Shown here: piece by piece, positions 2,033 through 28,286 of the stretch | How the letters are laid out: each line of letters starts with the position of its first letter | Position numbering within the stretch: the stretch's first letter is position 1 | DNA from: Hirudinaria manillensis | Lineage: Eukaryota; Annelida; Clitellata; Hirudinida; Hirudinidae | Reading direction: 5' to 3' | NCBI GenBank assembly: GCA_034509925.1 | Contig: CM067533.1 | Coordinates: 9,580,656 to 9,644,655 of the forward strand | DNA length: 64,000 nt | Made by a program: the position numbers and the translations under genes | Notes under the pieces: model-generated | Told to the model about the DNA's origin: nothing | What the model saw: the letters and a program-made list of their open reading frames with translations, nothing else | Databases searched by the model: none

Positions 2033-5457
<3,425 letters not shown>

Positions 5458-6455: not shown

Positions 6456-6874
6456 CTAGTTAATTAACCAACCGTTGGTAACGACGTTCAGCTCAAATTG
6501 TTTGTTAGTGTTACACTTTCCACACATCCAAACGTGTGTTCCGCCATCTCTTTCAGTGCATTCTTTGAGAATGATGAAACTGTTGCTTGCATCCACAGCA
6601 TATCTAGAATGGATTTCATTCATCATACCATCCTTTAAAATGAATCCATTTGAAAATAGTTTCTTGAATCTGCAGTCAGCGAATTCCTCGGGGCAGCAAG
6701 GATATTTGAAGGAAACCTGACCACCGATTTTACATGTTATATTTTCGTCTTTAAAAAAAAAACAAATGAAATTAACGTCGATTTGCATTCATTAATGAAT
6801 TAAATTGAGCAATATTTGAACAATGTTTAATTTAACTATGTTTAAAGCTTTTATTTATCTTACTATTATTATTA

Positions 6875-6912
<38 letters not shown>

Positions 6913-7509
6913 TATTGCTTAGCCAACGGAAGAACAATTATATATTAATATATTAAATGGATTTGTTTATTTCATTACGACTCAATTACATTCTCTGATG
7001 GCACGAAAGCTTGTCTGGTACTTACTTTTGACTGGCCAGTTGGCTTTATCCAAAATAAAATGCTTCGTTGAGTTGGCCTTGCTGCACATCCAGAAATATT
7101 CTCCAAAATCTTTTTCTTGACAATCTGTCAGCGTGACTCTAGTTCTACTTTCATCGATTTCAAATCGTTCTTGGACAGTCAGAAGACCATTACGCACGAT
7201 GTAATTTTTTGGATGTTTCAAGAAAGTAAAGGAATCGAATTCTTCAGGACAAGGACTATAAAACCTGATATCATATCCAAGAATGCATTTCAAACGTTCA
7301 GAAACGCCTGTAAGTTATGCAGATGAAACAACAGATAAAGTATTGGATGTAAATAAATTATTATTATTATTTTCTATTCTATCCACCAGCAAATCAGTTC
7401 TTGAGAAAATATTACCTCGTTCTAAACAAGTGATTATTAAAAGCAGTAAAACAGTTCTATGTTGATGAATTTTAAGGCGATTTGTTAACGCTTCAAACCT
7501 GGTCTCCAT
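6456..7509 (-). CDS. Secreted protein with two cysteine-rich Ig V-type domains (gene D)
   Basis: Three minus-strand exons: 7509-7416 (signal), 7307-7026 (Ig1) and 6748-6456 (Ig2, ending in TAG). The phases (1, 1) join to 222 aa. Exon 1 encodes a basic N-terminus and the hydrophobic core TVLLLLIITCLERG, a signal peptide, and ends at a GTAATA donor. Ig1 has LKCILGYDIRF, CPEEF and the terminal motif DFGEYFWMC. Ig2 has ITCKIGGQVSF, PCCPEEFADCRFKKLF and DGGTHVWMCGKCN. These fit a V-type Ig fold: first cysteine, C-x-F/Y core, then D-x-G-x-Y-x-W-x-C. There is no membrane anchor after Ig2, so the product is probably secreted. It is the most divergent of the four minus-strand two-domain genes. Pairing of the exons is inferred from phase and order; no transcript supports it. 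Confidence 0.65.
6861..6917. repeat. (TTA)n microsatellite in intron 2 of gene D
   Basis: About 57 bases of TTA/ATT trinucleotide repeat with two interruptions. Confidence 0.9.
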
Positions 7510-7594
7510 TTGAGAAACAAAGAAATTTCAAGAAATCATGGATACGCCCATGACCGTTTTGTTCGAATCGCGAATAACCGTGGAAAACCCCACT

Positions 7595-7607
7595 TAAATA
7601 TATTTGC
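7595..7607 (-). promoter_or_regulatory. TATA-like element upstream of gene D
   Basis: On the minus strand this reads AAATATATTTAAG, about 90 bases before the start codon at 7509. It is plausible as a core promoter but is only a sequence match in AT-rich DNA. Confidence 0.3.
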
Positions 7608-9012
7608 TTTCGGAAGCAGCTGTTTCGGAGTATGAATGAGATGGCGCTATTTAAGTGAGCTACAAAAAAAGAAAGAATCTGAAATTAGGACGAATAAATT
7701 GTTTTGCATTTCATCGCGGAACATATACATCGGATTAAAGTTCTATTGACAGAAAGTCATTTTAAAGCAAAGTCTAAAAGTCAGACGAATACAAAACTTT
7801 GCAATATAGCAAAGATGGCACTCATGTATCGATTATTGGGAATGAGTCAAGAGTCAGAAACAGGTACATCATCGTCATCGTCATCATCACTCACTCAAAG
7901 GAGTTGAGTCATTCATTCAACAAATTGATCTCCACTCCCAATAACATCACCACTAGTTTGCTGTATTTTCATTGAAATACAATAACAAAATCCTAATCAA
8001 CATTTGTAACAGAAAAGAATTGCTTCTGCCAAAACAAATGCTTTATTATGAAATTCCGCCATGATAACGCAAAATTCCTAGCATTGTGATCGAGATGGTT
8101 GTTTGGATTTTTTTTTATGTCACGGAAATTACATTAAACATTTTTAAGTCTGATCTTCTAAAATATGTGATTATAATTAGTAATTTATTGAATAAATAAT
8201 TATTTATTCAGAGTTTAGATTAGAAATATTTTAGGTACTAAATTCTGGAAGTTATAATAATTCTTCAATGACCAGTTCTCAATAAAAACAAAGAATCTAT
8301 ATTTGGAAACAAATTTCATAATCATCTGAAATAATAAAATACAGTAAAGCCTGCTTATAGGGACATGTAGATTTTGCAACAAACAAGTGTCCCTATGGGG
8401 AGGTTGTCCAAATGTGAAACTAAAATAAAATCGATTCCTAGAAAAAAGGCCCCTTAAGGACTAAAGTTGTTACCCTATTCTCAGGTGCCCCAATTCGCAG
8501 GTTTTTCTGTATAAAAACTGACTCCGCACATTGCAAAATTGTATTTATTTGCGTTGTGTTCATAAACAGCATATAGCTGTGTCCCAATATTTATACATCC
8601 CTCTTAACGTATAAAATGTTTACTTCAAATTGAAAGACAAATTTCCATAGCATTTATTTACAACTATTTAATGTTATAAAATATTTTCATTAAAAGCATA
8701 TTTTTAAAAAAAATTACCATTCGAAATGTGAATTTAGTAAAAAATTTTTATAGAATTAATTTGTCGAATTTTCCAATTGCGTTGATTTCACAGATCAATA
8801 AGTAAATTTAAAAAAAAAACAAACAACGGAATGAAAGAAAATGACATTATTAGTTATTTATTTTAATTATTATTCTAAGTGTCAATCGCTCCCATCCCCC
8901 AAAATTGTAAGAAAACATAGACCAATGCCAAACATAACTCATAGTAATCGAAATCCTGACAAATTATAAAAATAATTATTCAACAAACTGAAACATTTTC
9001 AACACAACATTT
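7608..9012. other. Spacer between Ig genes D and A
   Basis: Non-coding, AT-rich. The part from about 8100 to 9012 is homologous to 11200-11980 downstream of gene B, marking a segmental duplication. It contains a small pogo/Tigger-like element at 8342-8509. A short open frame at 7704-7907 is not supported by anything else. Confidence 0.5.
8342..8509. mobile_element. Small pogo/Tigger-like MITE
   Basis: 168 bp bounded by imperfect terminal inverted repeats: CAGTAAAGCCTGC at the left and GCAGGTTTTTCTG at the right (11 of 13 positions pair). The element is flanked by TA on both sides (8340-8341 and 8510-8511), the target duplication expected of Tc1/mariner-pogo transposons. There is no transposase, so it is non-autonomous. 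The paralogous sequence beside gene B, around 11390-11410, lacks it, which supports a discrete insertion after the duplication. Confidence 0.65.
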
Positions 9013-10001
9013 TTAAAGCAAACCTGCAACAATCTGTAGTGCATGAATTTCCACAAGAAAGTGTTTTCTGATGTTACACTTTTGGCAGGTCCAAACATAT
9101 TCACCTTCATCATCCTCTGTGCATTGTTTCAGAATCACTCCAGTCTTGTGTTCATTAAATTCATATTTTGAATTTATACTCAACAACCCTCTACGTACTA
9201 TGTTTTTGTTTTCATCCAATTTATCGAATCTGCAGAACTCCAATTCTTCAGCACAACACGGACATGAAAAGGAGAGTTCACTTGCAATGGAACATTTCAA
9301 CAGTTCGACTTCTTGAGAGAGAAAAATTAAGCCTGTATAACATTTATGCCTCTGTAATTAGTTCAAGGACTTTATAATTATTCTGACATATTATAACTTC
9401 AATTTGAAAGTGACATTTATATGAGCATTCTTTTTTCCCATGCAAAAGCAATAATGATTTATAACCTTTTTTAATGTTCAGGTGAAACTGCCTGTTAACA
9501 TTACACCTCCCACACATCCAAACATACGTTCCTTCATCATCTTCATTACATTCTTTCAATGTGATGTAAGTCTTGTTTTCATCCATCTCAAATCTATTAG
9601 TACTGTTTATTGCATTATCACGTACAATATATCCTTCTGTGAACAATTTCTTGAATCTGCAATCTTCAAATTCTTCAGGACAACAAGGACATTCAAAGCT
9701 GACTTGATTGCCCATTATGCATTCAATGGTGTTTCCACCTAAAAAGGTCAAAATTAATTCTATCATAGCCAAGTCATTGATGAGAAATCTGATTTAATTC
9801 TATTTCAACATATTATAATAGCATGTCTATTATTGTTATAAATTAATTTATTTATAAATTAGTCATTGAATTGAATTAGCAATGACTCTTATATCTGATT
9901 TGTCAATGACAATGACTTGAATAAATATATGAAAGTGTCTTGCCTAAGACCATTATGGACAACCCAAGCAGGAAGACCACAGGCAATCCACTTCCTGGCA
10001 T
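9013..10001 (-). CDS. Secreted protein with two cysteine-rich Ig V-type domains (gene A)
   Basis: Minus-strand exons: 10001-9944 (signal), 9738-9466 (Ig1) and 9308-9013 (Ig2, stop TAA). The phases (1, 1) give 208 aa. The signal exon encodes MPGSGLPVVFLLGLSIMVL and ends at TTAG/GCAAGA, a GC-type donor shared with genes B and C. Ig1 carries IECIMGNQVSFEC, PCCPEEFEDCRFKKLF and DEGTYVWMCGRC. Ig2 carries LLKCSIASELSFSC, PCCAEELEFCRF and DEGEYVWTCQKC. Each domain has about eight cysteines. The protein ends shortly after Ig2 with HALQIVAGLL, too short for a membrane anchor; alternatively a donor at GCAG/GTTTGC could lead to an unseen exon. Closest relatives are genes B (11981-15522) and C (17727-19953). 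In-frame sequence just upstream of Ig1 could also start MAMIELILTFLGG, an alternative leader. Confidence 0.7.
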
Positions 10002-10272
10002 GTAACACTTGTCCTGCCAATCAATAGACGTGCTTAAGTGGAAGAGATCGGGTTTTTGAGATTAAATTAAATTTGCGAACAATTGCTAGTTTCTGATTGT
10101 TGTAACATATATCTTCAAGTTTCAGAATGAAATTTTAAATCTAAGTAAAAAATTATAAGTTTCCTGCAGTTCAATGACTCTTTCACAGTTCAACGCCCTT
10201 CTTCCAAAAACGGATTCTGTTAAAAAAAAACCTGCAATTTAAGTCCGTTTAAAACTCACTGGTGCTATGCAT

Positions 10273-10284
10273 GAATATATAGCC
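10273..10284 (-). promoter_or_regulatory. TATA-box candidate for gene A
   Basis: On the minus strand GGCTATATATTC lies about 275 bases before the gene A start codon. The GTGGCTATATA context is repeated at gene B (15837-15847). Equivalent spacing at genes A, B and C supports a duplicated core promoter, perhaps with a 5' UTR intron. Confidence 0.45.
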
Positions 10285-11980
10285 ACATCGGCTATGGTTA
10301 TGGCAATCGTTCCGTAAATTCCGAGGTTTAAAATATGATAAATTCTTAGTCACAGCCCGGGCATCAGCTTAGCTAAGATGACATTTAGTTTTAAAATTCT
10401 GACTGAATTAGTCGTTGGTGAAGCAAGCATGACTTCAGTAAAAACTGAGTTGCTACTTTTGCTCGCTTTGAGAGAGAAACGAAATTCTGCTGTACCTTCA
10501 TCGCTAAAAACGACGAGAATCTTTAACGTGCATCGAATTTAAATTCCATATTTAAAATCTACAGAAAATTTCCTTAAAGAAAATATATGATTCGCTACTT
10601 TAATAATACTCTTTTTTTTTTAATGAGCACACTATTCAATCTTTTTGACCGCCTTCAGGAACGGAGAGAGCCAAAAGCAAAATTCTTTTTTTATCTGATA
10701 GATAACGATCACAGAAATGACGTGATATAATGAAAGAGATATCTTTAACGGGAAATTTAGTACTTATGTGATCGATGCTCAAAGGCGATTTGCAGAAGAA
10801 GCGAAGCGCGTTAAAATACCTCTCAGAAAATGTAAAACACAACGGTTCGAGGCGCTCTATAACCTTATTATAAATGCACATTAAATTTTCAGATCTCTTT
10901 CCACCGCTTGGCGATATTTCCATTTGTCACACTGGTTTGTATCAAAAATTGATTCTAATATTTCGGTAGAACATTCAAAAACCTTTAAAAAAATCTAACA
11001 CAATTGTGGCGGACCGGTACAAGAAGCTCCGTAATGGTTTTAAAACTGTCCCCTACTCACATCTCCTCTTTCCATCGTTTGGAGCGCTTTCTTCATGTCC
11101 CTCTAATTTGTGCCAACTTACTATTTTTACACTTCAATAGCTGCCTAAAAGGCCTTTCAAAAATCTATAAAACAATTGTATCACATCGTGATAATTATGG
11201 CTGTTTGGACTTTTTTATGAAACACTTGAAATAACATTAACCATTTTTTAGTCTGATCTTGTAAAATGTGTAAACGTGTGTAATATAATTAATAATTGAT
11301 TAAATAATTATTCGTTCACAATTTAAGTTATAAATATTTTAGATATTAATTTCTGTTAGTTATATTAATTCTTAAATGATCAGTTCTCAACAAAAATTTT
11401 TATTTATTTGCGTTGTGTTCATGAGTATAGCTGTATGTCCCAATATTTATATATCCCTCGTATAAAATTGAAAGACAACTTTCGATAGCATTCATTGAGG
11501 ACATCTAATATTATAAAATGTACTCATTAAAAGTATATTTATAAAAAAAATTAACATGGAAGTATGAATTAGTAAATTTTTTTTTTTACATAATTAGTTT
11601 GTTGAATTTTCCATTTGCATTGTTTTCACTGATTAAATAAAAATAAGTAATTTAAAAAAAATAACGGAATGGAGGGTAAGACACAGGAAACTTTACCCAG
11701 AACTTGAGTCCCACAAGACTTGCCTTGAAAAGCTTCCTGTCCTAAATTAGATTTAAAAAAAAATAAGTCCAGTTGACATAAATCCCACCCCTTAAGCCAG
11801 ATTAAACTGGGATGTCTTTTAGAAATCATTTCTAAGAAAATGACATTATTAGTTATTTATTTTAAATATTATTCTAAGTAAAAGTCAATCGCTCCCCTCC
11901 CCCAAAATTGTAAGAAAACATAGACCAATGCCAAACATAACTCATAGTAATCGAAATCCTGACATTTCTATAAAAAATAA
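10285..11980. other. Spacer between Ig genes A and B
   Basis: No supported exon. About 11200-11980 is the 3' flank of gene B and matches 8100-9012 beside gene A. Positions 11661-11760 are nearly identical to 17371-17465 beside gene C. Short open frames at 10636-10923 and 11004-11234 have no domain or splice support. Confidence 0.5.
11661..11760. repeat. Duplicated 3'-flank module shared by genes B and C
   Basis: About 100 bp around AACTTGAGTCCCACAAGACT is repeated at 17371-17465 with few differences, in the same position relative to the Ig2 exon. It marks the shared origin of genes B and C and seems absent from the gene A flank. Confidence 0.7.
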
Positions 11981-14900
11981 TTATTCAACAAACTGAAACA
12001 TTTTCCACACAACGTACAGCAAACCTGCAACAATCTGTAGTGCATGAATTTCCACAAGGAAGTGTTTTCTGACATTACACTTTTGGCAGGTCCAAACATA
12101 TTCACCAGCATCATCCTCGGTGCATTGTTTCAGAATCACTCCAGTCTTGTGTTCATTAAATTCATATTTTGAATTTATATTCAACAACCCTCTACGTACA
12201 ATATCTTTGTTTTCATCCAATTTATCGAATCTGCAGGACTCCAATCCTTCAGCACAACAAGGACATGAAAACGAGAGTTCACTTGCATTGGAACATTTCA
12301 ACAGATCGACTTTTTGGGGGAAAAAATTAAATCTCTCCATAATGATGATGATGATCTCTATAGTTAGTTCAAAGGCTCAGATAATTATTCTGACATTTTT
12401 ATATAAAACTAAGATAAACTTACATCCACATTTAAGATTTCAATTTAAAAGTGGTAATTATCTGCTCATTCCTTTTTAATGTAAAAGCAATAATGATTTA
12501 TAACCTTTTTTAATGTACAGGTCAAACTGCCTGTTAACATTACACCTTCCACACATCCAAAGATATGCCCCTCCATCACCTTCATTGCAATCTTTCAATG
12601 TGATGTGAGTCTTGTTTTCATCCATTTCAAATCTATTAGTACGGTTTATTGCATTATCACGCACAATATACCCTCCTGCGAACAACTTCTTGAATCTGCA
12701 ATCTTCTAATTCTTCAGGACAGCAAGGGCATTCAAAGCTGACCTGTTTGCCCATTATGCATTCAATGGATCTTCCCACTAAAACAGTCAAAATAATAACT
12801 ATTGTAAATTCTACCATAGCCAATCTTGATGATAAACTTAATTTAATCTTATCACAATTAACACAATTCAAACAACAATTTGATTTTGAGAATCACCAAA
12901 TTAAAATAAAACCAATTGGTTAATTTCTTTGAGTCAAAGGATACTTTAATTTCTATATTTTTTAAAAACCCCTGATTGAATTAAAGATAAAATAAATTTT
13001 AGCCTAATGTCTGTTTCAGATTTAATTTTCTCTAATTCGTCTCACAAATCAAAGAATTTTTGAGCATTCTGAATCTTCCACTTCTTATTTTTTCTTGAGA
13101 CAATGTTTTTCATCCTTTAAACTACCCATTTGAAAGTTCTGGAATCTTTGGACATAGTTGCAAGTAAGTTTTTCAAGTTCCAGCCAGTGCCTTTTCTGCA
13201 ACTAAGTGTCTACTTTGCTACTGATTTCTGTGTGACCAGATGTTTATATTTGGAAAGAGAAAGATCTCTTAATGGAAAATTAATCAAATATTAATTAAGA
13301 TAAGTTCCTTGCATGGAAGAGCAGTCCTGAAATCTCCTGATGCAATAACAACCTAATTTAACTACAACCACACCTAAACACCAACTACCTCACTACCATC
13401 GAGTCCCCAGAAACTAAAACTGCATGCGACATAATGGAGGAAGACTATTTTTGACATCATCACTCAAATGAATGCATGGAGCTATGCTTGCTCTGATGTT
13501 TTGAGAGAAACTAAGGGGGTGCAACCAATCTGGATCACCACCAATTTCCTGAAATTTGTTATTTATTCGTTCATCGACTATTTAGGAAATAAAATCATCA
13601 AAATACTGTTTACCTCCTGGAGATCGTTCTAGGCTTAAAAACTAGTCCGGATCAAAGTCTGTCAAATAACAAAATTTACGTAATCAGGATTTAGCTTTCT
13701 CATTGTTAAGCCATTAAATTTCGAAATCTTTAATAAGCTAATTGGCTAACCATTTCGGTCACCAGTTTCAGATTATGTTGAGGGAAGTTTCCTCAAAAGA
13801 ACGCAGGTTTAAAAAAAAAATAATAATTTTTTGAATCTTCCTATTAAAATTAGACTAAAGGTAATTATTAATCAATTGCTTCTGCAAGAACGAGTGGCGC
13901 GTGAGCTAAAAATCGGACCAATGAATTAATGTGAAAAAGCTTATACATGCGGATAAAGCTTGATTGGCTGATCTGTAATTGGCTGCATATTGAGCAGTTC
14001 AAGTTATAACCTCAAATTGCGTCGCGAAAACGATTTTATTAGTATAAATGAAAATAAATAAATGTAACAAATTAAAGTGAAACGTAACAATTATAAATAA
14101 ATAGTAAATAAATTCAAACCTATTTCATGGCAAAAAATCCTTAAGAAATTGTCAACTAAGGTATCAACCCTAAACACATCGGATTCCCAGTTCAAATTCT
14201 AGAATTGTTTTCATAAAAGTTGTCGTGAAAACAGGCTGGTTTTATGTCTTCTTATGAATGCTTTGTGTTGGATGTTGATTCACATGCACTGACCTACTGC
14301 GTTTTACGTTGATGTTCTAGATAAAGGACTTATGTTGATAAATTTTTGCTAGATCAATAATTACAGCATCTAGAGTAGTAAGCTGTAGTTGCGTTGGTTT
14401 CTTCCGTTCGATTTTTTAAAAATTTCCATTTCTATAGCAACAAGAACGGTGAACCGACAGTAGTTAAATGTTAAAGTACATAAAATCAAGGTAATGTTCC
14501 TAATATAGATCTGCAAGGGCCGAATTTTTCTGCCCATCCCTGCCCGCCACAGATTTATCACGCACACCGGGCCAGGTCCGCTAAATCTGTAAAATAGGTA
14601 AGAGCCCGCCACTTTACCGTTTTAAAAACCTGTACGCACAGCCCTACTCGAAGTATGCATCCATTTCATAGAAGATCTTAATAATCACACTATATAAGCT
14701 TAATATGCAATATCATGTTTAATAAATCTATTATTACCTCACTACAACATTATTGGATCTAACCGGATTGTTATACATTGTATAAAAATAAAGTATGATA
14801 AATATATGTTAAGAACATAACGGCCCATCAAATCCCGCTTCAAAGCATTGAAAGCCGGCCCAGCCATTTGTCTTAAATCGACTATCCCGGCCCTCACGTT

Positions 14901-15522
14901 TGTTTGAGGCCTGTGGCCGGGTCGGCCCTTGCGGGTCTCTTGTTCCCTCGTTCAATGGGATATGAAGTTCGTAGTTTTACGTACTTTACGAAATATTCGG
15001 CAACGTGCAGTAGCCATACTTTGTCCTTTGTCACTCATATCCTCGTATGTTGAAGTCAAGAGGTTGGCTCTTTACACTATTTTCCACTCTTCCCTTTATT
15101 TTCCGTCCACTCTTCTAGGAATCTTGGTGATCCGGTTATTTGTTATTCCTTCAATCTCCTCAGACAGGTTATCTTTGGTTACAACTTTGAAGGCCTTTGA
15201 AGATTGTATATTGTTTAGATAGGTAAAACTATCCGTTCATACAGAATAAATGAATTAATTTAAAAACGACAAGGAAGACCTAAGCTAATATGGCTAAAGA
15301 ATGTGGTAGTAAAGCTGCTGGGAGTTATTACATAGATTTCAGTCTTGTTAACCAAAGTAAACAAAAACCACTTCTTACAATCAACGACTTTTATTTCTGA
15401 TTTGTCAATGACATTGAATTAAATAAATACTTATTTATTACATAAACATATGCAAGTTTCTTGCCTAAGGTTTCGATGATCATCCCCAGCAGAAAGACCG
15501 CACACAATCCAGTCCTTGGCAT
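11981..15522 (-). CDS. Secreted protein with two cysteine-rich Ig V-type domains (gene B)
   Basis: Minus-strand exons: 15522-15465 (signal), 12777-12505 (Ig1) and 12309-11981 (Ig2, stop). The phases (1, 1) give 219 aa. The signal exon encodes MPRTGLCAVFLLGMIIETL and ends at TTAG/GCAAGA. Ig1 has SIECIMGKQVSFEC, PCCPEELEDCRFKKLF and GDGGAYLWMCGRC; Ig2 has LLKCSNASELSFSC, PCCAEGLESCRF and DDAGEYVWTCQKC. The C-terminus extends past HALQIVAGLL with YVVWKMFQFVE because the stop used in genes A and C is a sense codon here. Intron 1 is about 2.7 kb, longer than in A and C, partly because of a hAT-like element at 14513-14932. An alternative start inside intron 1, MVEFTIVIILTVLVG, would also give a hydrophobic leader. 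Confidence 0.68.
14513..14932. mobile_element. hAT-like non-autonomous element candidate
   Basis: A GC-richer 420 bp block with a perfect 11-bp inverted repeat at its ends: GCAAGGGCCGA at 14513-14523 and TCGGCCCTTGC at 14922-14932. Several GGGCCGG-type motifs lie inside. The CARGGGCC-like ends recall hAT termini. A clear 8-bp target duplication is not visible and there is no transposase frame, so the assignment is tentative. It lies in the long first intron of gene B. Confidence 0.4.
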
Positions 15523-15836
15523 GTAGCGTTTGTTCTTCCGAGCGATAGACGTGCATGAATAGAAGGGATCGAGAGTTTGAGATTAAATTAAATTTTCGAA
15601 CAACCGTGCAATCTTCAACATAAAAAGATGAAACTGTTTTATGCTAATTTCAAAATATTGTAAAAAAAATATTATAAATTTCAGAGTGAAGCTTGAAATA
15701 TAAATAACAAATTTGTAAAGTTTTCTTAATATGCATTTTTGAGTAACCTTTGCTTTTCGATGCTTTCTTTTTTGCAAACGAATTCGGCTAAAACACCCGC
15801 GACCTGAATCTATTTAAACTTCGCTGGCAACCTAGG

Positions 15837-15847
15837 TTTTATATAGC
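15837..15847 (-). promoter_or_regulatory. TATA-box candidate for gene B
   Basis: On the minus strand GGCTATATAAAACC lies about 315 bases before the gene B start codon. The downstream segment GTTTAAATAGATTCAGGTC recurs near gene C as GTTTAAACAGATTCAGGTC, so core promoter and leader were duplicated together. Confidence 0.5.
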
Positions 15848-16424
15848 CACGTATTGTTTACTCCCAGTCTCGACAGGAACTTGGCTGCAGCCCCGCCCAT
15901 ATTTATTTTTAGCAATTAATTTAACCACCAACAATTTAACTATTTTTCAAACAAAAGATAAATATTCACTGCCATGCTTAGAATTTAAGAATTCTAGTTT
16001 TTAAGTGGAATTAATAAATTGTGGGCTAATTCTTTTTGATGATCTGTTAAAAAATGGCTACTAATTACTGCTTCAACCCCACTATTTTTTCTGAATCTAA
16101 AACACATTTTAAAATATTTACGGAGATAATTCCACTCCGAACAATGCACCACTCTTTTCCAAACTTCTTGAAAGCCCAAGCTTTTAAATCACCATAACAA
16201 CGATTTTCAAATGTAATATCATTAATCATTACTAATGAAGAAAGTCAGATGATGAGCTACAAATTTCTACTTATAATTACAAGTGGAAAAAATCCATAAA
16301 TTTATTATTAACTAAATATCAAATCAGAATTAAAAATAATATCTAATAATAAAAAAGATATTGCATATTTATGAGAACTTTACTAAACCATTCATAAAAA
16401 AATAGTTGAGAAACGTGAAACTTC

Positions 16425-16560
16425 TAAACAACATTGCCTGTTGTTATTACATTTCCTTGTTTTCATTCATGCTAAATCTATGTTCCTGCATTTGTAGCTC
16501 ACCATTACGTACAATATAACCCTCCATTGGACAATTTCTTGAATCTGCAGTCCTCAAAGT
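16425..16560 (-). pseudogene. Decayed Ig V-type exon
   Basis: On the minus strand the sequence reads EDCRFKKL, then after a frameshift GYIVRNGELQMQEHRFSMNENK, the middle of an Ig domain of this family (compare FEDCRFKKLF and GYIVRDN in gene A). The motif region with D-x-G-x-Y-x-W-x-C is deleted, but a short match to the domain end follows. No intact exon can be drawn. It shows that at least one more gene or exon once lay between B and C. Confidence 0.7.
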
Positions 16561-17370
16561 AAGTAGCAAAGTTTAGCAGTTAAAAATGGCACAAATTAAC
16601 CCGGGTCATGACAGACCAACAGAAAAAAATGAATTCCATGATTTCTATTCATCCATAAAATCTGTTGGAAATGTTCAAGAAAACAAATAAAAAAAAACAT
16701 GCCCACAAATTGAAATAATCCAAGTAAACAAAATATGTCACAATATGCACTAAACCTTTCGCCTGGCACAAGTGATCCAGAAGAAGCATAATGTACAAAG
16801 TATATATGCAACGTTTATCTGTGAATCTCAGTTCAACTTGGCAAATATTTTAAGTGCCTTTTTTTATCCAAGGCACTGCCAATGCACTTTTGGCACAGAC
16901 GCAATGGAGTACAATAAAAGGAAATAGTGAGAATAAAAGACAATTAAAAAAAAATGAGAATATGAAGAACAATTAATTAATCATAATTGCAATTTGTCCT
17001 TGCTCGAATTGGAAATCGAAAACTGTGTTAGTGGTCCTATTGGGCCCTTCAGTTTGAATAAATAAATAAATAAAATAAAATAATAAAATAGTCTAATTTA
17101 ATTAAGAATAACATTGATTAAAAAAATGAGTTTTTAGATTGGCATTAAAAAGCTCAGGTGTGGGGGCTTTTTGATAATGAACGGGATTCCATGTTTTGGG
17201 CACCAAACTTGAGGCTGTGTGACGTGGGGACAAGGAACATGGGATGAGATGAAGACTAAAGTCTCATTTAGAAAAATCTGTTTTGAAATAAAAATTTGTT
17301 ATAAAATTAATTTGTGCATTTTAAACCTGCATTGAATTTACCTAGAGTCAACAAATCATTTAAAAATAAA

Positions 17371-17465
17371 TAGCAGAATGGAGGGAAAGACACAAAAAAC
17401 TTTATCCAGAACTTGAGTCCCACAAGACTTGCCTTGAAAAGCTTCGTGTCCTAAATTAGATTTTC
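17371..17465. repeat. Duplicated 3'-flank module, gene C copy
   Basis: Counterpart of 11661-11760, with the shared core CACAAGACTTGCCTTGAAAA. It sits downstream of the gene C Ig2 exon. Confidence 0.7.
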
Positions 17466-17726: not shown

Positions 17727-19953
17727 TTACAGCAAACCTGCAACAATCTGTAGTGCATGAATTTCCACAAGGAAGTGTTTTCTGATGTTACACTTTTGGC
17801 AGGTCCAAACATATTCACCTGCATCATCCTCGGTGCATTGTTTCAAAATCACTCCAGTCTTAAGTTCATTAAATTCATATTTTGAATTTGTATTCAACAA
17901 CCCTCTACGTACAATAGGATAGTTCTCTCCCAATTTCTCAAATCTGCAGGAGTCCAACTCTTCAGCACAACAAGGACATGAAAAGGAGAGTTCACTTGCA
18001 ATGGAACATTTCAACAGTTCGACTTTTTGGGAAAGAAAATTAATTATCTTCATTACAATTATGTCCCCATACTTAGTTCAAAGGCTCAGATAATTATTCT
18101 GACACTATTATATAAAACTAAGATAAACTTACATCCACATTTACGACTTCAATTTAAAAGTGGTAATTATCTGCTCATTCCTTTTTAATGTAAAAGCAAT
18201 AATGATTTATAACCTTTTTTAATGTTCAGATCAAACTGCTTGTTAACGTTACACTTCCCACACATCCAAACATATGTTCCTTCATCACCTTCATTGCAAT
18301 CTTTCAATGTGATGTGAGTCTTGTTTTCATCCATCTCAAATCTATTAGTACCATTGTAAATTACACCATCCCTCACAATGTATCCTTCTGCGAACAACTT
18401 CTTGAATTTACAATCTTCAAATTCTTCAGGACAGCAAGGACATTCAAAGCTGACCTGTTTCCCCATTATGCATTCAACTGTGCTTCCTGCTAAAACAGTC
18501 AAAATAATAACTATATTAAATTCTATCATAGCCAATCTTGATGATAAACTTAATTTAATCTTATTTCAACATTATAATGTTATTTCAATAACAATAAACA
18601 AATGAAACTTCAAGTCACTTGAAAGAATTACACATATTCCCAACTTCGGTAATCCCCGAGTCTCTACCAAACCAAAACATGATCAGGAATAGTGAAACAA
18701 GACTAAGTTAATAGCATCAATTAAATGAAAGTATTTTGGAAACTTCTCACGGAGTCTTTTTTTCAAAACCTTATGAAAATATTCCTACTCACAAAAAACT
18801 CATAGGAAAGTCTGATATAAATCTAGGCTTAAACACATCATAATAAAAGTATTGGAATAAAGTTAGAGATAGCTTGTGGAAAAAACAAAGAGAAAGATGT
18901 ATAGGAGTTCCTATCCTATAAAGTGCAGTACTTGCTAGAATCCATGGTACCTCGATGGTATAGATGGGAATTTAATGATTGCCAGACAGAATGAGGAGCA
19001 AATCTTGTTGTACAAAGCATAAGTAATTCAGTTTTTTTTGTTGCTTCCCACATTAAAAATAAATTACTTGATTATCACACAAAGACAATGACTAATAGTT
19101 GTGGTTATTTTTCGCAGTGTCTCACAAATGGTGCACTTATGACATCAAATTGAGAGTAATAAATAGAAATTGGACGAATGAATAGAAGTGAGTAAATGAT
19201 TGATTGATCTAATGCCCCTGCAATTTTCCAATTGTGCAGCTGAAATTATGATCTCAAATTGCTTTGAGAAAATGATTTTAATAGCATGAATGGAAAAAAT
19301 AAATGTAACAAATAATTAAAAAAATATGACAATTATAAATAAATTCTCAAGTATGTCTCATGAAAAAAAAATTCTTATCGATTTGAAATAGAAATAGTTG
19401 CATTGGGTTTCCTACTATTTCTTAAAATCACATAAAATAAAGAAATTAATTTAAAAATGATAAAGAAGACCTAACCTAATATGACCTAAGAATATGGAAA
19501 TAAAGCTAATGAGAGCAGTTATTACACATACTTCAGTCTTAACAAAAGTAAAAGTAAAAATAATTATTTAGTTAATAATTGTTAATAATGATTGCTTAAA
19601 TTAAGTTAAAACTTATTCAAAGTAGTCCAAATTCACTAATTGGCCTTTCAAGATGGCAGAATGGAATCCCACAATGTCCTTATCATTTATGTGTAGGTTA
19701 ATAACAAAAACAATACATGTAAGGGGTCCTATGTAGGTCGAATTAACATAACATGACATGACATGACATGACAAAACATAACATAAATATAACATAACAC
19801 AATACAACAACTGTCGTTCACTTCTAACAATCAATGACTCTTGTCTCTGATTTGTCAATGACACTGAATTAAATAAACACATGAAAGTTTCTTGCCTAAG
19901 CTTCTGATGAGCATCCCCAGTAAGAAGACCAAATACGATTTGATTCTTTGCAT
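17727..19953 (-). CDS. Secreted protein with two cysteine-rich Ig V-type domains (gene C)
   Basis: Minus-strand exons: 19953-19896 (signal), 18489-18214 (Ig1) and 18022-17727 (Ig2, stop TAA). The phases (1, 1) give 209 aa. The signal exon encodes MQRIKSYLVFLLGMLIRSL and ends at the same TTAG/GCAAGA GC-type donor as genes A and B. Ig1 has VECIMGKQVSFEC, PCCPEEFEDCKFKKLF, two N-x-T/S sites (NGTN, NKTH) and DEGTYVWMCGKC. Ig2 has LLKCSIASELSFSC, PCCAEELDSCRFEKL and DDAGEYVWTCQKC, ending in HALQIVAGLL. No membrane anchor follows. Sequence just before Ig1 is open in frame from MAMIEFNIVIILTVLAG, which could be an alternative leader used from an internal promoter, or just the U-rich tract before the splice acceptor. 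Confidence 0.7.
19744..19800. repeat. Short pentanucleotide array (ACATG/ACATA)
   Basis: Degenerate tandem ACATG and ACATA units just upstream of the gene C splice acceptor region, within intron 1. Confidence 0.75.
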
Positions 19954-20233
19954 GTAATACTTTTCCTGCCAATCATTAGACATGCTTTAGTGGATATTTA
20001 AGGTTAAATTATTTCAGCTATCTTATATAAATTATATGCTATCTTCAACATAAAAAGATAAACCTGCTTCATGTTAGTTTCAAAATGTTGTAACATACTC
20101 TAAAAGTTTCAGAATGCAATTTGAGATATAAATGTGAAAAAGTTTATAAGTTTTTCTTAATACTTTGAATAACCCTTTCTCCTTTTTTTCACTAATGAAT
20201 TCAGTGACCTGAATCTGTTTAAACTTTACTTGT

Positions 20234-20245
20234 CTTTATATATGT
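20234..20245 (-). promoter_or_regulatory. TATA-box candidate for gene C
   Basis: On the minus strand CATATATAAAGAC lies about 285 bases before the gene C start codon, followed by GTTTAAACAGATTCAGGTC, which is conserved at gene B. Position and flank match the gene B promoter. Confidence 0.5.
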
Positions 20246-20927
20246 GAAGGTTGATGAAGGCTAAACTATGATAAATTTTTAATCATACATCATCAAAGTG
20301 ACTCATACATTTGTTACTAATCAAGAGGGTGTTTGTGAAGCATACAGTAGTCACAAAGTGAAACTCATACATAGGTTTATAATCCTTCATCAGTCTCTCA
20401 TGCTAACTCTTGTTGCTTTATTAGATTCAAGCTCAATAATTATTTTTCCAAAGCACAAGATAAAGGAAAAAACTGGCATTTTGGACTCGAATAGAACGTC
20501 CGCCAAACTTTCCGCACTTTGAGAAATTCGTTCCCTAATTAGAATTTCGAAAATTATCTAAAAGCAATTAACATTTCTTGTTTTTAAATTTAAATGGGCT
20601 TGTGGATAAATTAGGTTTACGTACCTGCTCCGCCATCCCGTTCAATATAAAGTAAGGCTTTAACCACTCACTTTTAACGTCTGCCTAAAGTTAGCTAGAA
20701 TTTTTACAACATCCAGCTTCAAGTTGATTTTTAGAATTTGCTCATTTCGTTATCGTATTTAATATATTATTTATTAATAAATTATTGATATAATTAGGTA
20801 TATATTGTCATTGTGAGTGGTACAGTATTATAGGTTTAATTTTCACGTAATTGTTTCCTCTATTTCTCCATTTCTTTTTTTTAATGTTTAAAAAAAAATA
20901 CAATAAAATTACCGACTGTAATGATGC
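20246..20927. other. Divergent promoter spacer between genes C and F
   Basis: Genes C (minus) and F (plus) are head to head here, with their TATA candidates about 690 bases apart. A short open frame at 20298-20522 has no supporting features. Confidence 0.4.
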
Positions 20928-20937
20928 ATATATATAG
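20928..20937 (+). promoter_or_regulatory. TATA-box candidate for gene F
   Basis: CATATATATAG lies about 80 bases before the start codon at 21013, consistent with a short 5' leader. Confidence 0.45.
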
Positions 20938-21012
20938 AACTACGTAATTAGTCACCTCAAGCCGTATTCAAAACTGACTCGTGATTCTCCCAGTCGTGAC
21001 TTTCACGGTAAG

Positions 21013-24000
21013 ATGTCGGTGGCGTACAGTAAATATGGAAGGTGGGAGATTTTCTTTTTGAATTTTGAATGTTTGCCAAAAATCGATGTCAAGCTTAGCT
21101 TGATTAGACAAACTCCATTTATAATTATTCGCACATGAATAATGTGTTATTTTATTTTAAGAATTATAGAACTTGTGATTACATTTCAGGTGCAGAGTTA
21201 AATATTTGTCAGAATTTCATTTCAGATAGAATTATGATCTAATGCCCTTCAAGATAGTATACGGATAATAAAATTTTAACAAATAGAAATTATAAATTAA
21301 GAGGTTTACTCATCATCATTTTCACTGAACCTGTTTGTGTTTATGAAACGTATCTCGGCACCATCAACTCTAATAATCAGGCAATCTTCTAGCACACATT
21401 GTTACAACACTGCACTACTACTTTCCACATTCGATTCTTTCAAATTCCCTTTAATTAATAAATTAATAAATAATATCATGAATAATGTCCTCCATTGGCT
21501 CTGAAAATCATCTTATCAAAAGATTTCCAATAGAGAAAGGGCTGCCTAGAGAAGACACCAAGCTGCACAGCTGGTTCACAAACTACATACAGATTAAAAA
21601 AATTAAAATCTTTTTACTTTTTGTTAAATTTATTGCTTATAAAAAATATGTTTAATGTCACTTTATTAGGTGAATGTTTTTTTTATAGTTTTCAGAAAAT
21701 ATGGTTTAGAGGCCAATGGTTATCTGTGGTTGTCTTCATCTTGGCTACAATTGGTTTTGGTGAGCAAGTTTTAATGTTGGAATTACTTTGAGAAGGAACA
21801 TCGGAGAGCTATGTGTGTCGTGAACATGACGAGATTTGAACCTGACTCGAGGAAAAATTCCTTGACATGAATATTAATAATTTGATTGGGTGGATGAGAA
21901 AATATTATTGTTTTTTGACCTTTTTATTTCAAAGATAAACTTTAAATTTGTTTGTTTAATCATTGTACATATATCTTTCAATTTAATCGCTATGTTACTT
22001 GAGGTATTACTACTGCCACTTTGAAATATTGATTGTATTTCACAATTTAAATAAAATATTCTTGATTAAGGAATTTGTTGCTTGATATTTTAAATAATTA
22101 CTGTTCAGTATTGAAAAGTAAGCTATTATAATGGTATTACTCTATATATATTAATTTTATTTGCAACAGTGATAATGTTATTGAATAATAATAAAAATGA
22201 TATCACAAAATTGTTTCCAGATTCTTCCTCTGGAATACGTAATTTGACCTGTTATGAAGGTGGCAGCATCAGCTTTGATTGTCCATGTACTGAAGGCTTT
22301 CAGTACTGCAGGTTTAGGAAACTTGGAGGAGAGTTAATTGTACTTGATGGTGTATTGGATGATAAAAATGTTGAAAAATATGAGGTGGATGGAAGTGCTT
22401 TGAACATAACATTGAAAGGATGCAAGAAGGAAGATGAGGGGAATTATGTGTTGATGTGTGGAGGTTCGGACACCAACAAACAGTTTCAATTGAAAGTTCT
22501 TACAGTTACAACAAGTTGGTTGAAGATTATGTTGAGCTGCTATTTATTAATTAAAAGTCATTATTTCAATTATTTTAAATATTTCTATGGAGTTAGATAG
22601 GATTTATAATTAGTGTGTTTAACAAGATGTTTGGTGAATTGTTACAAGATGTTTGGTGAATTGTTGCAAGACGTTTGGTGAATTGTTACAAGATGTTTGG
22701 TGAATTGTTGCAAGACGTTTGGTGAATTGTTACAAGATATTTGGTGAATTGTTACAAGATGTTTGGTGAATTGTTACAAGATATTTGGTGAATTGTAACA
22801 AGATGTTTGGTGAATTGTTACAAGATGTTTGGTGAATTGTTACAAGATATTTGGTGAATTGTTACAAGATGTTTGGTGAATTGTTACAAGATGTTTGGTG
22901 AATTGTTACAAGATATTTGGTGAATTGTTACAAGATGTTTGGTGAATTGTTACAAGATGTTTGGTGAATTGTTACAAGATGTTTGGTGAATTGTTACAAG
23001 ATATTTGGTGAATTGTTACAAGATGTTTGGTGAATTGTTACAAGATGTTTGGTGAATTGTTACAAGATGTTTGGTGAATTGTTACAAGATGTTTGGTGAA
23101 TTGTTACAAGATGTTTGGTGAATTGTTACAAGATATTTGGTGAATTGTTACAAGATGTTTGGTGAATTGTTGCAAGACGTTTGGTGAATTGTTACAAGAT
23201 ATTTGGTGAATTGTTACAAGATGTTTGGTGAATTGTTACAAGATATTTGGTGAATTGTTGCAAGACGTTTGGTGAATTGTTGCAAGACGTTTGGTGAATT
23301 GTTACAAGACATTTGCTTATATATCTTGACTTGAGGAAAATTTTTTTAAAATAATATTAATAATTTGATTGGGTGGATGAGAAAATATTATTGTTTGTTG
23401 ACCTGCTTAGTTCAAAGAGAAAGGTTTACATTTCAATTTCATTATTATGTTATTTGAGGTATTACTACTGGCACTTTGAAATATTGATGTTATTTTACAA
23501 TTTAAATAAAATATAATTAATCATTGAATTTGCTGCTTCATGTTTTAAATAATTAATGCTAAATATTGAAAAGAATAAGGTATTATATTATTATTTTATT
23601 TGCAACAGTGATAATGTTATTAAATAATAATATAAATGATATCACAAAATTGTTTCCAGCTTCTTCCCTTAGAATACATACTTTGACCTGTTATGAAGGT
23701 GGTAGCATCAGCTTTGATTGTCCATGTACTATAGGCATTCAGTACTGCAGGTTTAGGAAAGTTAGAGGAGGGTTTATTGTACGTGATGGTGTATTGGTTG
23801 ATGGTTATGGTGAAAAGTTTGAGGTGATTGGAAGTAGTTGGATCATAACATTGAAAGGATGCAAGAAGGAAGATGAGGGAGATTATTTATCGATGTGTGG
23901 AAGTTCAGACAACAATAAATGGTTTCAATTGGAAGTCCGTCCAACTCCAAGTTAGTTGTAGTTATGTTGAGCTGTTATTTATCAATTAAATGTAATTATT

Positions 24001-26972
24001 TCAATTATTTTAAATATTTCTATGGAGTCAGACATGATTTATAATTAGTGTGTTTAACAAGACGTTTGGTGAATTGTTACAAGATATTTGCTTATATGTC
24101 TTGACTTGAGGAAAATTTTTTGAAAATAATATTAATAATTTGATTGGGTGGATGAGAAAATATTATACTTTGTTGACCTGCTTAGTTCAAAGAGAAAGGT
24201 TTACATTTCAATTTCATTATTATGTTATTTGTGGTATTACTACTGCCACTTTGAAATATTGATGTTATTTTATAATTTAAATAAAATATTCTTAATTATT
24301 GAATTTTCTGCTTCATATTTTAAATAATTAATGCTAAATATATTATTATTATATTAAATATAGTATTATATTATTATTTTATTTGCAACAGTGATAATGT
24401 TATTAAATAATATTAAAAATAATATCACAAAATTGTTTTCAGCTTCTTCCCCTAGAATACATACTTTGACCTGTTATGAAGGTGGTAGCATCAGCTTTGA
24501 TTGTCCATGTACTGAAGGCTTTCAGAACTGCAAGTTTAAAAAAATTTACAGTGGATTTACAGTAAATTATGGTGTCTTGGCTGCTGGATCTGATGAAAGG
24601 TATGAAGTGAATGAAAGTAGTAGGATCATAACATTGAAAGAATGCAGGAAAGAAGATGATGGAGGTTATGTATCGATGTGTGGAGATTCAGACACCAATA
24701 CATGGTTTGAATTGAAAGTTCTCCCAACAAGTTGGTTGAATGTCATTACTTATCAATTAAATGTTTTTATTTCAATTAATTATTTTGATGAAGTTGTTCA
24801 GTTTTATAATTGTATGTAATTTAATAAGATATTTGAATATCTTCATTTGAAAAGTCATCAGTAATATAAGCAGACAATAACAGGGCGTCGTTTGATTGGC
24901 TGGGTTCTTGTATATTTGATAAGATTGGTGGAAGTGAGTCAAATGAGTGAAGTGTGTGAAGAAGGAAATGGTACCTGAAGAACCTCGTTGGAACTCTTAT
25001 TGGAAATATAAAATATTATGTTGAATATTTAACACTTTTACCCATGATGATGATGTTATCAATTTTATTGATTAATAAAGATATTGATGGATAATAATAA
25101 TTGTTGTCCAGGTTATCTCTCTACAACAAATCGTCTAACTTGTAATGAAGGCGATAACATCAGCTTTGATTGTCCATGTGCTAATGGCTTTAAGTACTGC
25201 AGGTTTGGGAATATTCTGAGAGGGCACATTGTGCATAATGGTGTCTTGGTTGATGGAAAACATGGCCATGAAAAATATGAAGTAGATGGAAAAAGAGGTA
25301 TCATAACATTGAAAGAATGCAAGGAAGATGATGAGGGCATTTATGTATCGACATGTGAAGATTCTGAAACTAAAAATCATTTTCAATTGAAAGTCCATCC
25401 ACTTACAAGTTAGTTAAAGGCTCTGTTGAGATATTATTTATCAATTGAATATTATTATTATTTTAATAAATTAAATCAATTTTGATTAATAATTTAATAA
25501 ATTGTTAATAAGGTAAATATTCCAGTCAAAGGTCAAATTTTACTGACCTAAGTACCCTAAATAGTTTGTACTAGTCCTCAAAGTACCAAAAAGCACCATA
25601 TTTATGAAAATGCATTTTTCAGTCTTAAAAAGTACTAACTTTTTTGAAAATTTGATTTTTTGCAACAAAATCTTTTTTAAAGTCCTATTTTTTTTTAAAT
25701 TTAAACTAATCCGGTAATCATTAGATTTGCTTGGCGATTACATAATATTCATTCTAGCTGATTTTAAACATCCAAGAATTGTGTTGCATTCTGTTACCTA
25801 ATGCGATTTGAGAGTTTTGATAATAATACCAGTCATGCCTGGAGTTTGTTCCTTTAATAGGAATTGACTTTATAATGATTAATGGGATTGGCTTAGAACA
25901 GGAGTGAGTAATTGCTTTTCTTGGTGGGCAGTAATACCATAATTATGTTTTATATTTGTTTATTTTTTCATCAAAATTCATGGTGGACTAAAACAAAATC
26001 TTAACAAAACCTAATCCAAGAACATATCCTACATTAGGGTACCCCTAATGCTACCCAAAGGGCCCTAACCCAGCCCCCCAAAAGGGAACAATAATTAAAT
26101 TAATTTTAACGCCAACAGGAAAACTTTGAAAATTGCTTGGAAAAAAGGGTTAAAAATTAAAAAAAGAAACCGTAATTAATGTTGATGGAAATCCTCTTTC
26201 TCATTTAAATTCTAAAAATAAAAACAAAAACAAGTCAAACCAATACATTGTGCAAATGTATATAATGGTGAAGTTTCAAAATAATTTATCTAAAAATACT
26301 GATATTTGGGCTATTAATATCAGTCATAAAAAGTCCATGAAGAAACCCTAAATTTCAATTTTGAAAACCCATTATGGATCATGTCCCTGGTGTATCAAAT
26401 GCCTGCTAAGAATATAAACCGTGAAGGGGAAGTGGATGTCTGCAGAAAATAGTTGCCTAAGTTTAAATTTAAAAAAGTTACTTTTTTATTGTCTTTTGAT
26501 TTTTAACTAATTTAAAATTAAAAAGTTTAATGAAAACTGTAACTGGACACTGACATGTTTAAATTTTAATGATATCCTAATTGTCCTGAAAAGTTCTTAA
26601 ACAATTGAGAGGAAAAGGTGAGACTTTGTTAATGTTAGAAATTATGCATTGAATAATAATGATGATGGTAATTCTCTGTATAAATTCAGCAAAGCAAGAC
26701 TTATGTGAATTTTTAAAATTGCAATGAACATGATGATGGAACATATGTTATGATGTGTCACGATAACAAATACGTTATGAACTGAGCTGCTGTCAACAAA
26801 GATTTGTATGCAGGTGATTATAAATATTTTTTTATTAAGATTTTTTGCAAAATATACATAAAAATCTGTTGTTTTTTTTTTGTTGCAACCTTATTATCTA
26901 CAAATACGAATCATTATCATGTAAAATATCTTTTTATTTTCAGAAGATCAGAATTGTCTGAGGAATAAATAA
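21013..26972 (+). CDS. Protein with four cysteine-rich Ig V-type domains (gene F)
   Basis: Seven plus-strand exons: 21013-21041, 21689-21759 (hydrophobic leader), 22221-22514 (Ig1), 23660-23950 (Ig2), 24443-24730 (Ig3), 25112-25408 (Ig4) and 26944-26972 (tail KDQNCLRNK, stop). All Ig exons are flanked by phase 1 introns and the total is 432 aa with no frame break. The N-terminus MSVAYSKYGSFQKIWFRGQW precedes LSVVVFILATIGFG, a signal peptide or signal anchor. Ig domains (about residues 34-131, 132-228, 229-324, 325-423) start LTCYEGGSISFDCPC, or LTCNEGDNISFDCPC in Ig4, and end with motifs such as DEGNYVLMCG; in Ig4 this is DEGIYVSTCED. The donors after each Ig exon are GTTGGT or GTTAGT. Introns 2 to 4 are homologous to each other, so exon and intron were multiplied together. 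The product is probably secreted or a type II membrane protein. A decayed fifth Ig exon lies at 26700-26785. Confidence 0.72.
22621..23313. repeat. 22-bp minisatellite, about 31 copies, in intron 3 of gene F
   Basis: The unit is ACAAGATGTTTGGTGAATTG plus TT (22 bp), with three variants at one site: AAGATG, AAGACG and AAGATA. The homologous intron 4 contains only about one unit plus a partial at 24055-24090, so the array grew from a seed in a duplicated intron. Its variants occur in a patterned order (for example paired GACG units at both ends). Confidence 0.95.
25409..26699. other. Intron 6 of gene F, no other feature seen
   Basis: Long AT-rich intron with no supported exon and no recognised mobile element. 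Confidence 0.4.
26700..26785 (+). pseudogene. Decayed fifth Ig exon of gene F
   Basis: The sequence reads NCNEHDDGTYVMMCHDNKYV before a stop. This is the C-terminal motif of the family domain (compare KKEDEGNYVLMCG in Ig1). The N-terminal half is gone and the frame from the nearest acceptor is closed. It lies between Ig4 and the terminal exon, where a fifth domain would be expected. Confidence 0.6.
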
Positions 26973-27564
26973 GCTGAGTGATTTGCTAAGCTTTGCAATT
27001 CATAAATAGATTTCAAGTTTCATGGATTAATATTTGAAAGCCAATTAAATATCTAGAAGTGAAGTGCAGCATAAAAAAAAATTAAAAATCAGGATCATAA
27101 AGTTTATTCTCAAAATTCAAAGTGATCATCAAAAATAATTCAAATAGATGTGACAGATTAGATGCTCAGTAAGCCGGAATAATTCAATTTGTGTTGTTAT
27201 GTGCCATTATTGAGAAAGAGTTTAGAAAAATCAAATCTGAAATAATTTTCAGATATAATATCTCTTTAGCTCTTCAACTGTGCATCCAGAGTTCATGCAT
27301 TGAAGTAAGGGTGAACAGCATTATGACAGGGTATGTTACATGGCAAGCTGATCTTGCTGATGATGAGATCTTACCTCGTTTTGCTAGGAATATAAGAACA
27401 ATAGATTAAAAATTTGAAAAGAACATTTATCAAATTTTAATTGTTTATATACATATATATAGTCATTTTATTATTTAAAGTAATTCAACTTAAGTTATCC
27501 GAATAATGAATATCAAGTTGATTTGTTACTGTACTTTTAAGATTGTATTGAAAGTGGTGATCAA
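26973..27564. other. Convergent 3' spacer between genes F and E
   Basis: The 3' ends of gene F (plus) and gene E (minus) face each other. An open frame at 27191-27409 has no family motif and is not called. Confidence 0.4.
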
Positions 27565-28286
27565 TTAATAAACCTTTTTGGAATGTATAGAGTTTTGAAG
27601 ATCAGCTAAATATAAATGTAAACAATAATTATCATACATACCCATTTCAGCTTGACTTGGATAAACAATTAGCTCTTGTTGGGCTTTGCAATCCCCACAA
27701 TTCCATTTATAGGTTCCCTCATCATCATCAATGCATATAAAAACATATTTAGAATTATTTATTGTGGTGCCTCCTCTCCTTTCATCTCCCAGCTTCCAGA
27801 ATGTGCAGTTTTTCAAATCAGAACAAGGACTTTTAAATGTAATTTCATTACCAGTGGAACAAGTCAGCTGAGGAACTACAAAATTTAAGTTTTGGTTAAA
27901 ATTCTTAAAAACACCAATTCCTATTTATATTTTTATATATATATTTATACTATAATAATATTTATATTATAGCAATCCTCACACAATTTGTTCTTGTACA
28001 AAAGTGATTTATCAACCTGAAACTTCCAAATGGAACTGTCTATTGACATTACATCTCCCACACATCCAAACATATGTTCCTTCGTCATCTTTTTTACATT
28101 CTTCCAAAGTGATGCGAGTCTTGCTTTCATTCATACTAAATCTGGATTCATTTGCATGCACTGCACCATTACGTACAATATACCCTTCTCTGAACAGTTT
28201 CTTGAATCTACAGTCCTCATATTCTTCAGGACAGCAAGGGCATTCAAAAGAAACATCTTTCCCAACGGAACATGTCATCGTTTCAC
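27565..28286 (-). CDS. Two-domain Ig V-type protein, 5' exon not found (gene E)
   Basis: Two minus-strand exons: 28286-28017 (Ig1) and 27875-27565 (Ig2, stop TAA). Ig1 follows the acceptor TTTTACTAG and reads MTCSVGKDVSFEC, PCCPEEYEDCRFKKLF and DEGTYVWMCGRC, with a GTTGAT donor after VSG. Ig2 begins PQLTCSTGNEITFKSPC, has KNCTFWKLGDERRGG, and ends DDEGTYKWNCGDC. It is shorter and has lost sequence around the C'-D strands. A possible 36-base intron (27606-27641) keeps the frame either way, so the C-terminus is LADLQNSIHSKKVY in both readings. The first exon with a signal peptide must end in phase 1 and lie to the right of 28286, but I could not identify it. Confidence 0.6.

Follow-up and report, generated by a model that had tools for sequence, protein, structure and literature searches.

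The window analysed here, a stretch of 64,000 nucleotides from the leech Hirudinaria manillensis (GenBank assembly GCA_034509925.1, contig CM067533.1, positions 9,580,656 to 9,644,655 of the forward strand), contains at 6.2-28.3 kb a compact, two-stranded cluster of immunoglobulin (Ig)-type exons, which belongs to a larger family in the same genome. Of its 14 Ig-type exons, ten are read from the minus strand and four from the plus strand, and all of them are stop-free in the list of open reading frames (ORFs). An earlier description of this DNA, made from the sequence alone (the original prediction), had named fourteen intact exons in six genes with a set of cysteine-rich motifs, and two relics. 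The exons, motifs and gene number are recovered by the stop-free exons, their alignment and own-genome matches; "intact" applies to 13 exons that are full and not to the fourteenth (27652-27876), which is internally shortened, and the relics number three, two on the minus and one on the plus strand. Aligned, the 14 exons span about 90 residues and have nine invariant columns: towards the N-terminal side a Cys near the N terminus, a strand-B F, the P-C of F-x-(C)-P-C and a strand-C F, and towards the C-terminal side the Cys preceding D-x-G-x-Y, the D and G of this motif, and a Cys at Tyr+4. Genes i-v could be modelled with a signal-peptide exon and gene vi (27.6-28.3 kb) without one. The features are listed below; Ig exons given without remark are based on the ORF, the family alignment and splice sites.

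6204..6325, minus strand: gene i terminal exon with GPI (glycosylphosphatidylinositol)-like hydrophobic C terminus (phase-1 acceptor 157 nt past the domain, stop, hydrophobic tail)
6473..6748, minus strand: gene i Ig exon 2
7026..7307, minus strand: gene i Ig exon 1
7416..7509, minus strand: gene i signal-peptide exon (ATG, hydrophobic core, phase-1 GT donor)
9014..9311, minus strand: gene ii Ig exon 2 (ORF; the terminal exon of genes iii/iv is deleted downstream)
9466..9738, minus strand: gene ii Ig exon 1
9944..10001, minus strand: gene ii signal-peptide exon (GC donor)
11626..11741, minus strand: gene iii terminal exon with hydrophobic tail (conserved with 17356..17450)
12025..12309, minus strand: gene iii Ig exon 2
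12505..12777, minus strand: gene iii Ig exon 1
15465..15522, minus strand: gene iii signal-peptide exon (GC donor)
16071..16226, minus strand: Ig relic (weak match to the family hidden Markov model (HMM), short frame)
16453..16527, minus strand: Ig relic (family HMM)
17356..17450, minus strand: gene iv terminal exon with hydrophobic tail (conserved with 11626..11741)
17738..18022, minus strand: gene iv Ig exon 2
18214..18489, minus strand: gene iv Ig exon 1
19896..19953, minus strand: gene iv signal-peptide exon (GC donor)
21648..21759, plus strand: gene v signal-peptide exon (gene model)
22221..22514, plus strand: gene v Ig exon 1
23660..23950, plus strand: gene v Ig exon 2
24443..24730, plus strand: gene v Ig exon 3
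25112..25408, plus strand: gene v Ig exon 4
26677..26775, plus strand: Ig relic with stop codons, limits approximate (reading frames)
27652..27876, minus strand: gene vi Ig exon 2, lacking part of the C'-E region (ORF, alignment, HMM)
28015..28284, minus strand: gene vi Ig exon 1, the domain modelled by AlphaFold (ORF, alignment, structure model)

Gene v may encode a single protein with all four domains, or its four plus-strand exons may be alternatives. Between the first and second of them lies a 22-bp tandem repeat with some 30 copies (22600-23340), and about one unit of it recurs after the second.

A duplicated gene family and its selection

When the genome (148,429,096 bases in 23 contigs) was searched with one window domain, 73 matches were obtained at E≤1, of which 69 were at E≤1e-3, the best non-self match having an E-value of 3.0e-41; a search with another domain gave 67 matches at E≤1. 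The family HMM, run on the retrieved stretches, found 74 matches, including 71 near-complete domains; it was trained on these domains, so that its E-values for weak copies are not independent. Under a 700-nt gap rule the 71 domains fall into 40 exon groups, 24 of them pairs, and the groups form eight clusters on four chromosomes; these domain and group counts are lower bounds (at least 71 domains). The family is largely linked, with 57 of the 71 domains located within 0.39 Mb (C8:9.397-9.788 Mb). Few columns underlie the family tree, which is poorly resolved (18 of 66 inner branches starred), but in it the second domains of the three genes ii-iv form one group (100/99), separate from their first domains, and the plus-strand window exons join copies that lie about 160 kb from them (99/96). 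These sequence comparisons support the original proposal that the cluster formed by tandem and inverted duplication accompanied by decay. The phase-1 exon borders noted in the window also held up in an all-phase control over the 71 domains. Donor candidates are in phase 1 in 64 cases and in the other phases in two each, with none passing in eight domains, and acceptor candidates are in phase 1, 2 and 0 in 38, three and one cases, with none passing the filter in 32 domains.

The ratio of replacement to synonymous substitution (dN/dS) in genes ii-iv is 0.18-0.24 for the first domains and 0.23-0.36 for the second, and an approximate Fisher test puts all six pairs below 1 (p≤0.035). Such purifying selection argues that the duplicated two-domain genes of the window are functional. 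Nine of 14 tested pairs, hand-chosen from 57 and evaluated with rounded counts and one fixed site number for all pairs, are below 1 at p<0.05. The plus-strand type, comprising the window exons and the copies at 9.763 and 9.768 Mb, has ratios of about 0.5-1.5, and a pair at 9.773/9.777 Mb has a ratio of 3.0; the youngest copies, near 9.41 Mb, range from 0.45 to 2.75 on 0-3 synonymous changes, which are too few to interpret. The fast evolution originally suggested can thus be retained for the plus-strand type only, with ratios not significantly above 1, and does not describe genes ii-iv. For 57 non-independent pairs taken together, the whole-domain ratio comes to 0.54, and replacement change is highest in the C'-C'' stretch (pN 0.205 vs. 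0.089-0.120 elsewhere).

Domain fold and cysteine register

AlphaFold modelled the first-type domain (28015..28284) with a predicted local distance difference test score (pLDDT) of 93.0, the other four models scoring 78.7-82.1, and the second domain type with a pLDDT of 87.3. Both modelled types match Ig domains across the PDB. The matches of the first are mostly V-type (2B4, CD2, CD4, NEGR1, Dpr), and those of the second, which come from a second-look comparison and not from the ranked Foldseek listing, are mixed (CD4, CD2, antibody light chains, Dscam1, VEGFR1 domain 2 and others). Both types are predicted to be Ig beta-sandwiches, as first proposed for this DNA, and the first is mostly V-like. 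Pfam profiles agree weakly at best: at E≤1 I-set is reported in six and V-set in two of the 14 window members, below the cut-off wherever scores are given, and the best V-set score (PF07686, E 0.021) is 15.5 bits vs. a curated cut-off of 26 bits, which does not deny membership of the fold. Nothing seen points to a viral origin, viral Ig proteins matching by fold alone.

The family is unusual in the position of its F-strand Cys, which lies at Y+4 in 69 of the 71 domains and at the canonical Y+2 place in none, where 54 domains have a Trp instead. The canonical core disulfide of the Ig superfamily, linking the B-strand Cys to an F-strand Cys at Y+2, is therefore missing, which marks a variant and not an exclusion from the Ig class, as many true Ig folds vary at this place. 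The canonical B-strand Cys is present in 43 of the 71 domains, a second B-side Cys in 63, a strand-C Cys in 52 and a G-side Cys in 35. An even number of Cys at the eight Cys positions is found in 60 domains, and in 33 of 38 (60% identity), 38 of 45 and 45 of 53 representatives, compared to shuffled means of 19.1, 22.6 and 26.6; counting every Cys, the number is even in 32 of 38, 36 of 45 and 43 of 53. Because even counts exceed the shuffled expectation, the extracellular cysteines are probably paired as disulfides. Strand-C and G-side Cys are associated across the 45 representatives at 70% identity (p 0.004). Two second domains (C9:1740763-1741011 and C9:1760973-1761221) are without the F-strand Cys and keep the G-side Cys and one B-side Cys; in both, His replaces the first of the two Cys found in P-C-C domains. 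The analysis of the representatives, like that of the tails below, was confined to domains of at least 75 residues.

Which known domains resemble this arrangement? The original prediction had pointed to pIgR and CD300. The V domains of CD300, TREM and pIgR are each encoded by a single phase-1 exon and have an extra disulfide between strands C and C', and the F-strand motif of pIgR/CD300 is D-x-G-x-Y-x-C-G. The leech domains share with them a V-like fold, phase-1 exon borders and a D-x-G-x-Y near a C-G pair, but differ in the F-strand Cys at Y+4 and not Y+2, in the Trp at the canonical Cys place and in having up to eight cysteines. CD300a and pIgR are also just some of many near-tied structural matches, so that the fold does not single them out; their absence from the best 50 of one structural listing carries no weight against them. 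With the sub-threshold V-set scores added, the proposed kinship finds no support, and the resemblance, judged by sequence, appears superficial. The best PDB sequence match is titin, where 7ahs has the same C-x-x-x-D-x-G-x-Y-x-x-x-C-G spacing (E 1.4e-6). The match extends over a short stretch of about 32 residues and could reflect convergence; given a similar Y+4 Cys in a titin domain, the shift either has a precedent or arose twice. The Ig domains of titin and myosin-binding protein C belong to intracellular muscle proteins without signal peptide or anchor.

Signal peptides, putative anchors and neighbouring features

Genes i-v each have an upstream signal-peptide exon with a phase-1 donor, which accords with the signal peptides originally read into most products, here placed on separate exons; none was found for gene vi. 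The paralogous signal-peptide exons of genes ii, iii and iv apparently share a GC donor (GCAAG); donors of this kind are rare, and this one appears to have been retained through the duplication of these genes. Applied family-wide, the signal-peptide rule gave 12 sense and 4 antisense candidates (94,857 nt), a count that serves as the control for the window list of 18 candidates, which includes clear chance ones, e.g. on the wrong strand. Direct hydrophobic read-in to the Ig exons as a signal peptide (genes ii-iv and the plus-strand cluster) was set aside by judgement because each read-in contains a phase-1 acceptor and signal-peptide exons are found upstream. Plus-strand Ig exons ending in a stop were likewise rejected as terminal exons, the stop lying past the phase-1 donor.

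At the other end of the genes, terminal exons that the original prediction had overlooked encode GPI-like hydrophobic C-termini in the window, one clear (gene i) and two weaker (genes iii and iv). The terminal exons of genes iii and iv agree at 81 of 90 bases over their first 90 columns, and their flanks agree less (43/94, 95/127 and 64/111 in three stretches). Outside the window, four tandem copies and one copy on C2 have a common transmembrane exon with a basic tail, and the copies at 9.763 and 9.768 Mb have another common hydrophobic terminal exon (90.6% identity). A general search for transmembrane terminal exons gave 14 sense candidates, including two that overlap and three behind one gene, vs. 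one antisense candidate over 68,668 nt. Several family genes thus appear to be anchored at the cell surface, in disagreement with the original view of secreted products lacking a clear membrane anchor, yet no such exon was found for genes ii, v and vi. At C8:9416100-9421550, three candidate transmembrane exons (9419283, 9418983 and 9418491) stand in a row behind one Ig pair, like alternative anchors. An ITIM (immunoreceptor tyrosine-based inhibitory motif)-like pattern in four of 16 tails was discounted, since by eye it lies in or beside the hydrophobic stretch.

To the left of the Ig cluster, similar exons at 61-276 and 4195-4428 suggest duplicated neighbour genes; by eye they recall a tetratricopeptide repeat (TPR)-type protein, but Pfam gave no match of any kind at E≤0.01 for three exons there. 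To the right lies a laminin-EGF-type exon (30585-30959; PF00053, E 1.1e-6), and further on a long tandem repeat (56039-57466) that is open in three minus-strand frames (LTHSLTHS...) and has an extreme GC skew. Elsewhere the genome holds at least 63 antistasin-domain matches (150 of 162 candidates scored), strongly concentrated on C2, and, above the cut-off, PF16915 (best E 5.3e-11), the C-terminal domain of erythrocruorin linker, an annelid protein; the antistasin-domain matches are in keeping with a leech.

A probable surface recognition family and its alternatives

The best fit to these results, towards which we lean with moderate confidence, is a tandemly expanded leech family of small extracellular, surface-fixed V-like recognition proteins. 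The usual gene would comprise a signal-peptide exon, two phase-1 Ig exons and a terminal exon for attachment to the cell surface, through a GPI-type signal in genes of the window and, in the paralogues, through one transmembrane helix followed by a short basic tail. Each domain would be a compact V-like sandwich with two to four disulfides in a non-canonical register, produced by a two-residue shift of the F-strand Cys and a Trp in its place. The products would most likely serve at the cell surface as receptors or in adhesion and bind ligands from outside, whether non-self, microbe or self cell, perhaps via the variable C'-C'' side, and since no clear cytoplasmic signalling motif was seen they may signal via partners or act by adhesion. 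The analysis shows the exons, a predicted fold, the expansion in the genome, the Cys parity and purifying selection on several copies; from these we infer splicing, anchoring, surface location and ligand binding of the family proteins. An immune recognition role on coelomocytes or in the gut, although plausible, is conjecture.

Several observations weigh against this picture. Signal-peptide candidates were found for 11 of 38 exon groups, leaving 27 without; gene ii has lost the terminal exon of genes iii/iv by deletion, and terminal-exon searches found no anchor exon for genes v and vi. Given these gaps, part of the products may be secreted or dead, or their models wrong. The GPI-tail finder gave eight sense vs. 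two antisense matches in 146,174 nt, with overlapping stretches counted repeatedly, and both this finder and the general terminal-exon search missed the tails of genes iii and iv; the hydrophobic tails of the window could be chance readings of AT-rich DNA. Regarding diversification, dN/dS is significantly above 1 in none of the five plus-strand-type and 9.773/9.777 Mb pairs, nor in any tested pair. The C'-C'' stretch also has the highest synonymous change (pS 0.269) and contains alignment gaps, so that part of its variability may be alignment error.

Adhesion, allorecognition, immune recognition and a salivary role are not told apart by the sequence, and the family might consist of cell-adhesion or self-recognition molecules, for neural wiring or for gamete or tissue recognition, instead of immune receptors. 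Adhesion-type V domains (CD2, NEGR1/IgLON, Dpr/DIP and JAM) are among the structural matches, and the short tails with no clear ITIM in the cytoplasmic part would suit such a role; structural ties, however, do not reveal function, and birth and death of tens of copies would be unusual for wiring molecules. We consider this explanation unlikely. We give less credence to secretion in saliva or gut, as proteins directed at the host or the blood meal that are small, disulfide-rich, expanded and diversified like other leech salivary families. The animal is a leech, probably a blood feeder, with many antistasin-domain matches in its genome, our searches found no anchor exon for genes ii, v and vi, and many disulfides would suit protease-rich surroundings. 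Many copies do, however, end in a hydrophobic or transmembrane exon, purifying selection acts on genes ii-iv, and a word search finds "immunoglobulin" and "Ig-like" zero times in the main text of a salivary transcriptome paper (PMC7191736). That the cluster is mostly a non-functional remnant of gene amplification, as the relics, the shortened exon, the lost terminal exon and the dN/dS near 1 of the plus-strand type could suggest, is very improbable in view of the ratios below 1 in nine of the 14 pairs chosen from 57, the 13 of 14 window exons that are open at full length and the conserved splice phase.

For the surface recognition family that we favour, the nearest analogue is Hydractinia Alr, a complex of about 40 linked, duplicated Ig-superfamily (IgSF) genes with possible pseudogenes that functions in surface recognition, according to PMC11876637 and PMC11999971. 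The likeness drawn here is one of gene arrangement, and the phylum is different; Alr-like linkage is present in the leech family, and anchors and signal peptides were found for part of its genes. The leech tails are short, and those of Alr are longer, with signalling motifs. Ig or V-like domains also occur in two other invertebrate families with a supposed role in recognising microbes, the FREPs of snails and the VCBPs of amphioxus, VCBPs having a chitin-binding domain after their V domains. The window gene models show neither a fibrinogen nor a chitin-binding exon, although no profile search was aimed at them. FREPs are also covered in PMC12074976. The leech family resembles tandem IgSF recognition families such as Alr. 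Among the matches listed for the leech literature surveyed, no description of the family was found, and the main texts of the leech genome papers PMC7191736, PMC10671345, PMC10087013 and PMC10494388 do not contain the word "immunoglobulin".

A bolder proposal, possible but doubtful in our view, is a leech recognition complex of about 40 mostly linked genes, with surface-anchored, paired V-like domains and a re-registered core, which tells self, symbiont and microbe apart, is independent of the vertebrate leukocyte receptor and cnidarian Alr complexes, and has diversifying single-domain members. To our knowledge, the receptors behind immune recognition in annelids are poorly charted. Should its genes be expressed on defence or gut cells, the cluster would constitute an Ig-type receptor complex of many genes in a leech with medical uses, and its natural Ig domain with a tryptophan at the usual place of the F-strand cysteine would be useful for the study of Ig-fold evolution and for engineering.
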